A stretch of 64,000 nucleotides of DNA, from contig PBIN01000007.1 in the NCBI GenBank assembly GCA_002720855.1, positions 1-64,000 of the forward strand, given 5' to 3'. This DNA is from Rhodospirillaceae bacterium. GTDB taxonomy: Bacteria; Pseudomonadota; Alphaproteobacteria; MPNO01; UBA2964. The notes beneath the pieces are model-generated. The model did no database searches, was not told where the DNA came from, and saw only the letters and a list, made by a program, of their open reading frames with translations. Shown one piece after another: positions 24,936 through 64,000 of this stretch; within the stretch, counting starts at the first letter, position 1, and each line of letters starts with the position of its first letter. Made by a program: the position numbers and the translations under genes.

Positions 24936-25147
24936 TTTTAACTCCCCATCAAAAGTTATGTTCTCATGGAAGCAGGTAATTCCACTTGCGGACAGACTTG
25001 GATCAAACGTAACCGTATGGTTACGGATTTCTTATCAGAATCAAAGACCTACTAGCATATGATCAAATTTTGATGTATGGGTAACATCGTTTAATCGGTA
25101 TGACTTGCCCGGGTGGGCCGAAGCAAGGACCGTCAGGAGGATAAAAG

Positions 25148-25411
25148 ATGAAATTGGGAAAAACGCTTATTGTCGCCGCGCTGCCTCTCGCTCTCGCAGT
25201 TGGTTGCGAAACGGCCAATCAAGGAAAGTCTGGCTCGAGTGATAAGGCTGCGATGCAGGCTCAGAGCGACGCCAAGCGCGCTGCCGCCGCTGCCAATGCC
25301 GCTGCTGCGAGTGCTGCCGCTGCTGCGCGGGCTGCTGAAGCTGCTGCTGCTGAAGCTAAAGCCGCTGGCGACAAGGCTGATCGCGTCTTCCGCAAAGGCA
25401 TGCGTAAATAA
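25148..25411 (+). CDS. Braun-type (Lpp/OprI-like) alanine-rich lipoprotein
   Basis: 87 residues, with AGGAGGA directly upstream of the ATG. The signal peptide ends in LAVGC, so Cys 20 should be lipidated. The mature part is a continuous Ala-rich, charged helix (AAAEAKAAGDKADRV) suited to a trimeric coiled coil, and it ends FRKGMRK, with a C-terminal Lys as in Lpp and OprI, whose terminal Lys is linked to peptidoglycan. It converges on an L,D-transpeptidase 31 bases away. The covalent linkage itself is inference from that end sequence and neighbour. Confidence 0.75.
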   Translation: MKLGKTLIVAALPLALAVGCETANQGKSGSSDKAAMQAQSDAKRAAAAANAAAASAAAAARAAEAAAAEAKAAGDKADRVFRKGMRK

Positions 25412-25438
25412 TCAGCCCATCCGCATAGACAGGGGATT

Positions 25439-25458
25439 GGCGTCAAGATTTTGACGCC
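25439..25458. terminator. Bidirectional hairpin between lipoprotein and transpeptidase
   Basis: GGCGTCAA and TTGACGCC form a perfect 8-bp stem with a 4-base loop. It overlaps the last codons of the transpeptidase gene. On the plus strand it is followed by a weak T-rich tract (ATTCCTTATTTCT). It probably helps to end both converging transcripts. Confidence 0.55.
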
Positions 25459-26423
25459 GATTCCTTATTTCTATTAGAGGTTGTCTTTAGCACGGGAACC
25501 GGCAAACCGCTGCGTTCCCGAGCTATTTTTTTGACTATTTTCCAGTCAATCAGGTGTTTCTTTTCGCCCGCGGCTTGAACGACCCGATAGACCATTTCGG
25601 GAATGGGCGCCGGGGTAGGTAACTTACCTTTTTCAATTTCGATGTTTTGCTCAAGATTTGGGTGAGCTTCCATCATAAGCTGATCGCCTACCCAACCTGT
25701 TTTCATCTCCTGGCTTACAACGGTCACTGGCGTACCAAGGGGAAGCTGGGGAAATAGGTTTTTGATGTCCTCGGGATACATTCGAATACATCCGTGGCTT
25801 ACGCGCCGGCCGACGCCCCAGGGATTGTTGGTACCGTGAATTAAATATGCCGCCCAACCCAGGTAGAGGGCGTGACGACCTAATGGATTGTCTGGGCCTG
25901 GCCTAACAATGGCCGGAAGTTCCGGGTCTTCCTTTCGGATCGATTCAGGAACATACCATGTCGGATTGCGCTTCTTGCGAACAATTTTAGTTGCGCCTTG
26001 CGGGGTATCCCAGGCTTCCTGTCCGGTACCAATTGGATAAGTCTGGATAGGACCACCATCCGCAGGAAAGTAGTACAGTCTTTGATCAACAAGGTTGAGT
26101 AAAACACCTTTTCGCGGACCCGCCGGCAATAAATGACCCGTAGGTAATGTTATTTTGGTTCCTTCACCGGGTATCCACGGATCAATTCCCGGGTTGGCCG
26201 CCATAAGTTCAACAAAACCCAGTTTGTTGTTTCGCGCGATGTCCAACAGCGTGTCTTTATGTCGCGATTTGGTATAGCGCGTCGTTCCAATCAAAGATGC
26301 GTAATTTACAGGAGCCTGGGATTCTGTGGCGGCTTGTGCTGCAATAGGAAATCTGATCGCCGCAGCAAAACCTGCGCCAATGCCAAGGCAAATTGATCGT
26401 CGGCTGTAAAATCTTCGATCCAT
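25443..26423 (-). CDS. L,D-transpeptidase, YkuD domain with LysM, Tat-like signal
   Basis: Start placed at ATG 26423 (AAGGA 11 bases before); a TTG at 26465 is in frame. 326 residues. The N-terminus SRRSICLGIGAGFAAAIRF with twin Arg suggests Tat export. A LysM-like part (HKDTLLDIARNNKLGF, about 57-72) precedes the catalytic YkuD motif HGTNNPWGVGRRVSHGCIRM (His and Cys of HxxNN...SHGCIR, about 202-221). The enzyme forms 3-3 crosslinks or attaches lipoproteins to peptidoglycan. It converges on the Lpp-like gene and could be the partner enzyme. Confidence 0.93.
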   Translation of the reverse strand: MDRRFYSRRSICLGIGAGFAAAIRFPIAAQAATESQAPVNYASLIGTTRYTKSRHKDTLLDIARNNKLGFVELMAANPGIDPWIPGEGTKITLPTGHLLPAGPRKGVLLNLVDQRLYYFPADGGPIQTYPIGTGQEAWDTPQGATKIVRKKRNPTWYVPESIRKEDPELPAIVRPGPDNPLGRHALYLGWAAYLIHGTNNPWGVGRRVSHGCIRMYPEDIKNLFPQLPLGTPVTVVSQEMKTGWVGDQLMMEAHPNLEQNIEIEKGKLPTPAPIPEMVYRVVQAAGEKKHLIDWKIVKKIARERSGLPVPVLKTTSNRNKESASKS

Positions 26424-63011: not shown

Positions 63012-63497
63012 GTGAAACAGGTATATCTCGACACAATTCTTCTCATCGAACGCCTTCATCGCCAGTTTCTTGAGGTGGTAAAGGCGGAACTCGATCGCCT
63101 GGGCATTGAAGATATCAATAATGTCCAAGCACTCATTCTCTCTCATATTGGAGAAGAAGAGCTAACTGTCGGTGAGTTGACCTATCGTGGCTATTATCAG
63201 GGGTCGAACGTTTCCTACAACGTCAAAAAGATGGTTGAAAACGGTTACCTTACGCAGGAACGGTCCGCTCACGACAGGCGTACCGTCCGCGTCAGTGTTT
63301 CCGAAAAAGGACTTGAAATCTGTCAGCTAGTTTCGGTTCTTTATGATCGACATATCGAACAATTAGCAGACGGTCCAATCGAAGAAGACGCAATGCAGGC
63401 AACAAACGAAGCGCTGCGCCGACTTGAACGTTTCTGGGCACATGAACTCGCATATGGTCCAAAAAGTCCAATGGACGTATCAACCTCCGCGGCCTAA
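63012..63497 (+). CDS. ldtR: MarR-family regulator, LdtR-like
   Basis: 161 residues from GTG 63012. A winged-helix domain with ELTYRGYYQGSNVSYNVKKM (about 57-76) and the wing RSAHDRRTVRVSVSEKG (about 84-100) closely follows LdtR, the alphaproteobacterial regulator of L,D-transpeptidase genes. A direct target could be the transpeptidase at 25443, but no binding site is marked. It follows the coxL-like gene by 93 bases and converges on rpoH. Confidence 0.82.
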   Translation: MKQVYLDTILLIERLHRQFLEVVKAELDRLGIEDINNVQALILSHIGEEELTVGELTYRGYYQGSNVSYNVKKMVENGYLTQERSAHDRRTVRVSVSEKGLEICQLVSVLYDRHIEQLADGPIEEDAMQATNEALRRLERFWAHELAYGPKSPMDVSTSAA

Positions 63498-63518: not shown

Positions 63519-64000
63519 CTAATTCTCCAACAGTTCCTGAGAAAGTAGGTCGGCGTCGCCGTGCTGCTGTACAAGGGCAGTTTTAAGCTTATTCAACGCC
63601 CGGCTTTCAATTTGCCGAATTCGCTCTTTCGTCACACCATAATCGGCACCGATTTCGGCCAGGGTCGATTTGTCATCGTCCAAAAACCGATGCTGGATGA
63701 TATCCTGTTCGCGTGGTGACAGAATAGCGAGTGCATCCTCTAACCACTTAGATCTGATTTCACTATCATGTCGGTCGAGCACGATCTCTTCAGGCGTTGG
63801 ACGGTCATCCGCAAGGAAATCTTGTAAATCATCGCCGTCTTCTGGGCCGGCTGACGCATTTAAAGATTTTGTCGGACCGGAAAAATGCCCCTCCATTCGT
63901 TCCACTGCAGAGACCGAAACGTTGAGGCGCTCAGCGATATCGGCCCTATTCTGGTCCGTCATCAGGCCACCATTGTAGTCCGCAATTTTTGCCCGCAGAC
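63519..64000 (-). CDS. rpoH: RNA polymerase sigma-32 factor, 3' part
   Basis: The reading frame runs through the right edge; the start lies beyond 64000. What is visible is the C-terminal part: region 3 remnants LNVSVSAVERMEGHFSG, then region 4 with LSPREQDIIQHRFLDDD and the -35 helix-turn-helix TLAEIGADYGVTKERIRQIE and a SRALNKLKTAL end. The spacing and RIRQIESRALNKL fit RpoH. It directs the heat-shock regulon; hspQ at 24615 would be a plausible target. Confidence 0.92.
   Translation of the reverse strand, partial: LRAKIADYNGGLMTDQNRADIAERLNVSVSAVERMEGHFSGPTKSLNASAGPEDGDDLQDFLADDRPTPEEIVLDRHDSEIRSKWLEDALAILSPREQDIIQHRFLDDDKSTLAEIGADYGVTKERIRQIESRALNKLKTALVQQHGDADLLSQELLEN

Follow-up and report, generated by a model that had tools for sequence, protein, structure and literature searches.

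A conserved lipoprotein–L,D-transpeptidase gene pair in Alphaproteobacteria as a predicted Braun/OprI-type outer-membrane tether

The convergent gene pair and its genomic context

The window (i.e., the whole stretch of 64,000 nucleotides that was analyzed, from an assembly named Rhodospirillaceae bacterium) contains a lipoprotein gene (25,148–25,411, + strand, 87 residues plus stop codon) and a gene for an L,D-transpeptidase of the YkuD type (25,443–26,423, − strand, 326 residues), and the re-derived reading frames place the two tail to tail with a gap of 31 bp. A first-pass annotation had proposed a lipoprotein of 87 residues with the OprI/Lpp plan (lipobox Cys, Ala-rich charged helix, C-terminal Lys) and, 31 bases away, a convergent YkuD neighbour with an intact SHGCIR motif; the reading frame and a match to Pfam PF11839 confirm the former, and the coordinates, the motif and the YkuD score confirm the latter. 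The junction of both 3′ ends is spanned by a hairpin of 16 pairs (25,431–25,466, no strand assigned; −24.5 kcal/mol for 25,430–25,470), a possible shared terminator. The same convergent order is found in E. coli K-12, where lpp (1757421–1757657, + strand) and ldtE (1757721–1758725, − strand) lie 63 bp apart, and this match strengthens the case for a tether.

The lipoprotein gene is preceded by AGGAGG (25,135–25,140, + strand), a ribosome-binding-like site 7 bases ahead of the start, and opens with a signal peptide (25,148–25,204, + strand) ending in LAVG, directly followed by the codon of Cys20 (25,205–25,207, + strand), the expected lipidation site. In the predicted single-chain model, a short helix in the signal peptide is followed by one long helix at residues 31–86 (25,238–25,405, + strand), with block-mean pLDDT values of 83–97 across residues 31–87, and the heptad register places Ala at the a and d positions. 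The Ala-rich, charged protein ends in VFRKGMRK, and its last codon, Lys87 (25,406–25,408, + strand), encodes the predicted acceptor for peptidoglycan attachment, judging from the sequence and from the class-sample loci described below. Taken alone, the lipoprotein has a hydrophobic period of 3.5 residues with a shuffle p of 0.0135. It passes the cut-off of the Pfam family Alanine_zipper (PF11839; 28.8 vs. 23.1 bits, residues 31–87) and stays below that of NCBIfam NF040598, the Lpp/OprI family alanine-zipper lipoprotein (39.4 bits, cut-off 43, E 6.5e-10, residues 7–87), and it has no match at E ≤ 1 to the LPP leucine-zipper family PF04728, for which E. coli Lpp scores 89.5.

The codon usage of this gene was also inspected. 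GCT makes up 58% of its Ala codons, vs. 19–21% in the window genes and a ribosomal operon, and is the commonest Ala codon in six of seven relatives checked as well; the bias was rejected as a sign of high expression because the ribosomal genes do not share it. The ribosomal-likeness score of the lipoprotein gene (0.009) exceeds that of all 53 window genes (maximum 0.008) and lies below the ribosomal median (0.031).

The neighbouring enzyme matches YkuD (PF03734) with 100.7 bits (cut-off 23.4). It scores 184.2 bits against the NCBIfam LdtE equivalog (NF047955), below the cut-off of 480, and was therefore not filed as LdtE. The LysM domain named in the first-pass annotation stands only in part: Pfam gives no LysM call at E ≤ 1, and the predicted model (mean pLDDT 79.8) contains a strand-helix-helix-strand unit at residues 49–93 (pLDDT about 90), which together with a weak match of residues 57–94 to the SafA model (E 0.094), presumably a LysM model, makes 'LysM-like' a fair description. 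The closest structure to the enzyme model in the library searched is the Klebsiella L,D-transpeptidase 4lzh (E 1.2e-25), and the nearest solved sequence is 9tyw, an L,D-transpeptidase of 322 residues (303 bits). The catalytic motif SHGCIR (residues 209–214; 25,782–25,799, − strand) is of the transpeptidase type SXGChR, following the motif rule in PMC10434034 (this and the other papers are cited from the available parts of their texts).

A search of the genome for YkuD recovered three proteins, and SXGChR occurs in the window enzyme only. The other two (L002, 1330–1917, + strand; L003, 1462–1992, + strand) carry the motifs TQGCIA and TEGCVA; the TQGCIA protein has a weak and partial match to the model of the amidase DpaA (43.2 bits, cut-off 365), and the TEGCVA protein matches no NCBIfam model at E ≤ 0.001. 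In E. coli, DpaA detaches Lpp (PMC8263019, in the part available). By sequence, the kit of this genome would thus comprise one enzyme for attachment and perhaps another for detachment. Two beta-barrel families were searched, OMP_b-brl (PF13505) and Porin_2 (PF02530), which we take to be those of the linked Brucella proteins, and the genome has no match to either at E ≤ 0.01.

The first-pass annotation had also pointed to an LdtR-type regulator in the window. The gene at 63,012–63,497 does encode a MarR-type, LdtR-like protein, which scores 195.4 bits against an NCBIfam cut-off of 250; it is located 36.6 kb from the pair, and a link between them finds no support. It adjoins a gene at 63,519–63,962 whose product has matches to sigma-70 regions 3 and 4.

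Pairing across Alphaproteobacteria and named relatives

An initial search covered 41 genomes and found the enzyme in 27 of them, at 28 loci including the window's own. A Lys-ending lipoprotein lies nearby in 21 of these loci; the other seven comprise five that reach, or nearly reach, the edge of a contig (L017, L020, L026, L027, and L028), a second copy (L031), and a weak match (L030). For the class as a whole, 387 alphaproteobacterial genomes (evenly drawn, ≥ 90% complete) were scanned, 59 of which match the enzyme profile at E ≤ 1e-30. Near full-length enzymes (E ≤ 1e-80), counted by hand, occupy 51 places in 46 of the 387 genomes (about 12%) and span 23 family groups of the sample (also a hand count), the remaining matches being weaker and mostly partial YkuD.

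The pairing scan considered 51 loci, i.e., 50 plus the window's own, and left out two in which the sequence downstream ran for < 450 bp. Within 600 bp downstream of the enzyme, a Lys-ending lipoprotein is present in 34 of 49 full-length loci (33 convergent, one co-directional) and no lipoprotein partner is present in 15, and not one full-length locus of the class sample has solely a non-Lys lipoprotein there. Twelve genomes lack a partner downstream, and in seven of them the Lys-ending lipoprotein is found on the upstream side of the enzyme match instead, co-directional and about 0.7 kb or less away (G222, G147, G354, G139, G292, G200, and G384; the upstream co-directional loci are L163, L168, L170, L179, L180, L181, and L182). 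The pair survives rearrangement, and the enzyme and a Lys-ending lipoprotein are adjacent in 41 of the 46 genomes with a full-length enzyme (34 downstream, seven upstream). Among the five exceptions, the lipoprotein is elsewhere in one (G108), has an in-frame stop in one (G164), and was not found in one (G041), and two end at the contig edge (G033, G015). The synteny search suggested in the first-pass annotation, which had named relatives devoid of both the terminal Lys and the transpeptidase neighbour as evidence against its reading, hence came out the opposite way, with the pair kept in varying orientations and with no locus holding a non-Lys lipoprotein only in the 600 bp downstream.

Five genomes have a second copy of the enzyme, and for one copy in each (L148, L150, L158, L169, and L191) no Lys-ending lipoprotein was called along the sequence retrieved; these enzymes are possibly cross-linking specialists. 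As a control, the same scan was applied to 20 loci of weaker YkuD matches in the class and returned no Lys-ending lipoprotein (0/20), in contrast to which the 34 of 49 full-length loci exceed chance. Two of the controls, L197 and L198, resemble the enzyme profile more closely than the others do; the window-genome loci L002 and L003 were left unscored because the profile does not match them. In the upstream flanks of enzyme loci, Lys-ending lipoproteins were found in 4/50 and 4/75 cases, and by their position the four of 50 (L168, L179, L181, and L182) appear to represent the same family, as co-directional partners.

A lipoprotein profile (A2) matches 36 of the 46 enzyme-bearing genomes and 3 of the 341 others (Fisher p 5e-38); A2 was built from enzyme-adjacent lipoproteins, which favours the first figure, so that the informative part is the near absence elsewhere. 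The three matches outside are the weakest and partial ones, in frames of 135–206 residues, and one of the 36 (G088) is a match in a long frame away from the enzyme locus. The C-terminal residues of other lipoprotein-like frames in the loci (15/38 Lys) were not used as a background, because these frames include further copies of the same family as well as non-genes; at least two loci (L149 and L173) also contain, antisense to the Lys-ending frame, a further lipoprotein-like frame whose last residue differs.

From named genomes, the best 80 of at least 579 confirmed relatives were kept. A convergent Lys-ending lipoprotein lies in the 600 bp downstream at 51 of the 80 loci and is missing from that interval at another 24, the remaining five loci being at contig ends; no fewer than four of the 24 (L050, L051, L055, and L100) carry one on the upstream side. 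Hosts of the pair among the matches listed include records named Defluviicoccus, Kiloniellaceae, Inquilinus, and Tistrella mobilis KA081020-065 (L073), together with the gammaproteobacterial Sedimenticola, and the closest named relative among them is 'Alphaproteobacteria bacterium UBA2964', with 75% identity to the window.

A variant was seen in or near a Micavibrio-like enzyme group, where a scan restricted to Lys-ending candidates found short zipperless lipoproteins (38–50 mature residues, convergent) in 12 of 17 loci (L049, L056, L058, L065, L074, L075, L083, L098, L156, L167, L176, and L177), 11 of them at 334–766 bp from the enzyme and the one of L075 at 3.7 kb; none was called in L057, L063, L076, L085, and L111. 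Most share a block like APYAxERTVG, and the C-terminus of the L075 protein, KKADRMFSKSQRK, resembles that of the zipper type. Going by these sequences, the short lipoproteins are possibly a zipperless tether, and their Lys endings suggest that the kept feature is the terminal Lys and not the helix.

The lipoprotein family and the enzyme lineage

The nearest Lys-ending candidate of each locus was taken to assemble a family of 80 distinct mature lipoproteins, so the terminal Lys in 80/80 follows from that choice and is no test; all other positions within the last 16 residues vary. The 69 Ala-rich members show a peak of the hydrophobic pattern at a period of 3.5 (z about 46). Arg at position −9, present in 64 of 71 zipper-class sequences, was used to anchor the register, in which core residues occupy each of eleven a/d positions in 81–98% of the zipper-class sequences; the intervening positions mostly show lower values, two of them reaching 75–80%. 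Nine disjoint gapped pairs with ≥ 80% identity were compared: in six, the helix contains an indel of 7 residues (accompanied in one pair by a 3-residue gap there), and three differ only near the mature N-terminus, by 1, 1, and 5 residues. When all disjoint pairs with ≥ 60% identity are considered, gaps are not restricted to multiples of 7. A longer C-terminal motif, [RK]h[FYML]x5K, appears as a tendency only (59/71 zipper-class sequences, 4/9 short lipoproteins), and a terminal Lys is likewise found in the nine short paired lipoproteins that lack a zipper.

At E ≤ 0.01, the 18 members of A2 match PF11839 in 15 and NF040598 in 17 cases, and PF04728 in none. The solved sequence nearest to the lipoprotein profile is 9tz4, 'Major outer membrane lipoprotein', which we take to be OprI, with an E-value of 3.1e-5 and an alignment reaching its last residue; the composition bias of this match amounts to 20.8 bits, and unrelated helical proteins match weakly too. 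A profile comparison with E. coli Lpp was rejected as support for the helix, having aligned the signal-peptide region alone (probability 88.7, 29 columns), and support for the lipoprotein is consequently drawn from the family models and the 9tz4 match. E. coli Lpp and the window lipoprotein have in common the lipobox, the coiled coil and the C-terminal Arg-Lys, and the latter differs by its mainly Ala core, the missing PF04728 match and a mature length of 68 residues, against 58 in E. coli Lpp.

A tree of 133 enzymes was built with a quick method that provides SH-aLRT support only; the four outgroup rows do not fall in one group and two of them sit on long branches, so its root and the direction of descent are unsure. 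LdtA, LdtB, LdtC, and LdtE of E. coli form one clade (support 100), nested in a group of gammaproteobacterial enzymes (support 95) that includes one alphaproteobacterial family. The window enzyme falls outside both, among alphaproteobacterial enzymes, and the topology, with its uncertain root, would fit a co-orthologue of LdtA, LdtB, LdtC, and LdtE together. The window genome has one enzyme, as compared with the four of E. coli, three of which attach Lpp and one of which, LdtE, makes 3-3 cross-links (PMC8263019 and PMC12729407, in the parts available). The alphaproteobacterial family placed with the gammaproteobacterial enzymes (f66; L183–L185, L189, and L190) is a possible case of transfer, as read from the tree.

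A predicted tether and its alternatives

We consider it probable that the pair is an alphaproteobacterial tether of the Braun/OprI type together with its anchoring enzyme. The lipoprotein would be exported, would presumably receive its lipid on Cys20 and be delivered to the outer membrane, and its alanine-core coiled coil, probably a trimer, would extend across the periplasm and present the C-terminal Lys. The catalytic Cys of the YkuD enzyme would then attack a tetrapeptide stem, with release of D-Ala4 and formation of a thioester (chemistry as described in the available part of PMC10434034), and the meso-DAP carbonyl would be passed to the side-chain amine of the Lys, by which the outer membrane would become covalently bound to the peptidoglycan. 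This reading builds on features established at the sequence level, namely the lipobox, the helix with its heptad register, the kept terminal Lys, the intact motif, and the conserved pairing, and on a lineage probably shared with the Lpp-anchoring enzymes of E. coli. A close parallel is found in Pseudomonas, where OprI is a helical lipoprotein ending in Arg-Lys, like that of the window, and LdtPae2, of the ErfK/YbiS/YcfS/YnhG lineage to which the window enzyme probably belongs, anchors OprI in P. aeruginosa and Lpp in E. coli (PMC10434034, in part); the window pair differs by belonging to another class, by its divergent sequence, and by an attachment that is predicted.

Several observations count against a tether. 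The lipoprotein misses the NF040598 cut-off, does not match PF04728, and aligns with the E. coli Lpp profile in the signal peptide only; moreover, an adjacent pair was not seen in 5 of 46 enzyme genomes (two of which end at contig edges), one of two enzyme copies has no partner called in five, and 24 of the best 80 named loci have no partner in the 600 bp downstream. LdtE, the very enzyme encoded beside lpp in E. coli, makes 3-3 cross-links instead of anchoring Lpp (PMC8263019, PMC12729407), and enzymes that anchor and those that cross-link do not fall into distinct lineages (PMC10434034, both as far as the available texts go), so the window enzyme might mainly cross-link in the manner of LdtE, with the adjacent lipoprotein anchored weakly or not at all. 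We regard this as unlikely: the window enzyme is the single YkuD protein with a transpeptidase motif found in the genome, so that a bound lipoprotein would need it, enzyme and Lys-ending lipoprotein co-occur with few exceptions, and Lpp is anchored by three of the four enzymes that represent its probable lineage in E. coli.

That the lipoprotein is instead a free structural alanine-zipper protein, with its terminal Lys serving another purpose, seems very unlikely. Part of E. coli Lpp is indeed free. Licanantase of Acidithiobacillus thiooxidans, a lipoprotein that shares with that of the window an alanine zipper in which Ala occupies the heptad positions a and d, was studied and described as a secreted protein, and the available text of PMC4137666 contains neither a linking enzyme, unlike the window pair, nor the word peptidoglycan. 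Against a free protein stand the absence of any full-length enzyme locus in the class sample with only a non-Lys lipoprotein downstream, the nine short zipperless partners that end in Lys too, and a gene that keeps beside one kind of transpeptidase through rearrangement. A recent acquisition from a gammaproteobacterium, which would make the pair an oddity of the window genome, is the least credible of the alternatives and close to negligible; pairs do occur in gammaproteobacterial records and f66 does group with gammaproteobacterial enzymes (support 95), but the window enzyme sits among alphaproteobacterial relatives outside that group and the full-length enzyme is spread over 23 family groups, and the tree appears to largely refute it.

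A Braun/OprI-type tether is not what the literature would lead one to expect in this class. In the parts of the texts available, Lpp-like proteins are confined to a subset of Gammaproteobacteria in a survey that counted PF04728 (PMC8263019), Lpp homologues are described as absent in most Alphaproteobacteria, with none known in R. sphaeroides and others (PMC10470522), and none is reported for Rhodothalassium (PMC11762602). For R. sphaeroides, a tripeptide-Lys-Arg fragment is described whose source protein is unknown (PMC10470522). Brucella and related Rhizobiales have no lpp and link beta-barrels instead; in Brucella and Agrobacterium the outer membrane is likewise bound to peptidoglycan by an L,D-transpeptidase, through barrels linked at their N-terminus, unlike the window lipoprotein (PMC10787603, in part). 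Among the matches listed from the open-licence literature, no prior report of Lpp/OprI-type proteins in Alphaproteobacteria was recognised. The genetic evidence for a protein of the Lpp/OprI kind in a class from which it was said to be missing is strong, and its covalent bond is predicted; the core of the first-pass annotation, an Lpp-type tether with its linking enzyme in an alphaproteobacterium, gains support from the conserved pairing, the tree and the family models.

Tentatively, and with rather less confidence than in the tether itself, a scenario may be put forward in which a Lys-ending lipoprotein and its dedicated L,D-transpeptidase would constitute an ancient tether predating the split between Alpha- and Gammaproteobacteria. 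Many Alphaproteobacteria would have retained it, others would have exchanged it for linked beta-barrels, and the Micavibrio-like group would have lost the helix and been left with a short lipoprotein whose terminal Lys persists beside the enzyme. Such tethers would have been missed by the survey in PMC8263019 (as represented by the available text), since it counted PF04728, a family matched neither by the window lipoprotein nor by its 18 aligned relatives. With the full-length enzyme present in about 12% of the sampled alphaproteobacterial genomes and paired in 41 of those 46, the picture of how the attachment of the outer membrane evolved would change.
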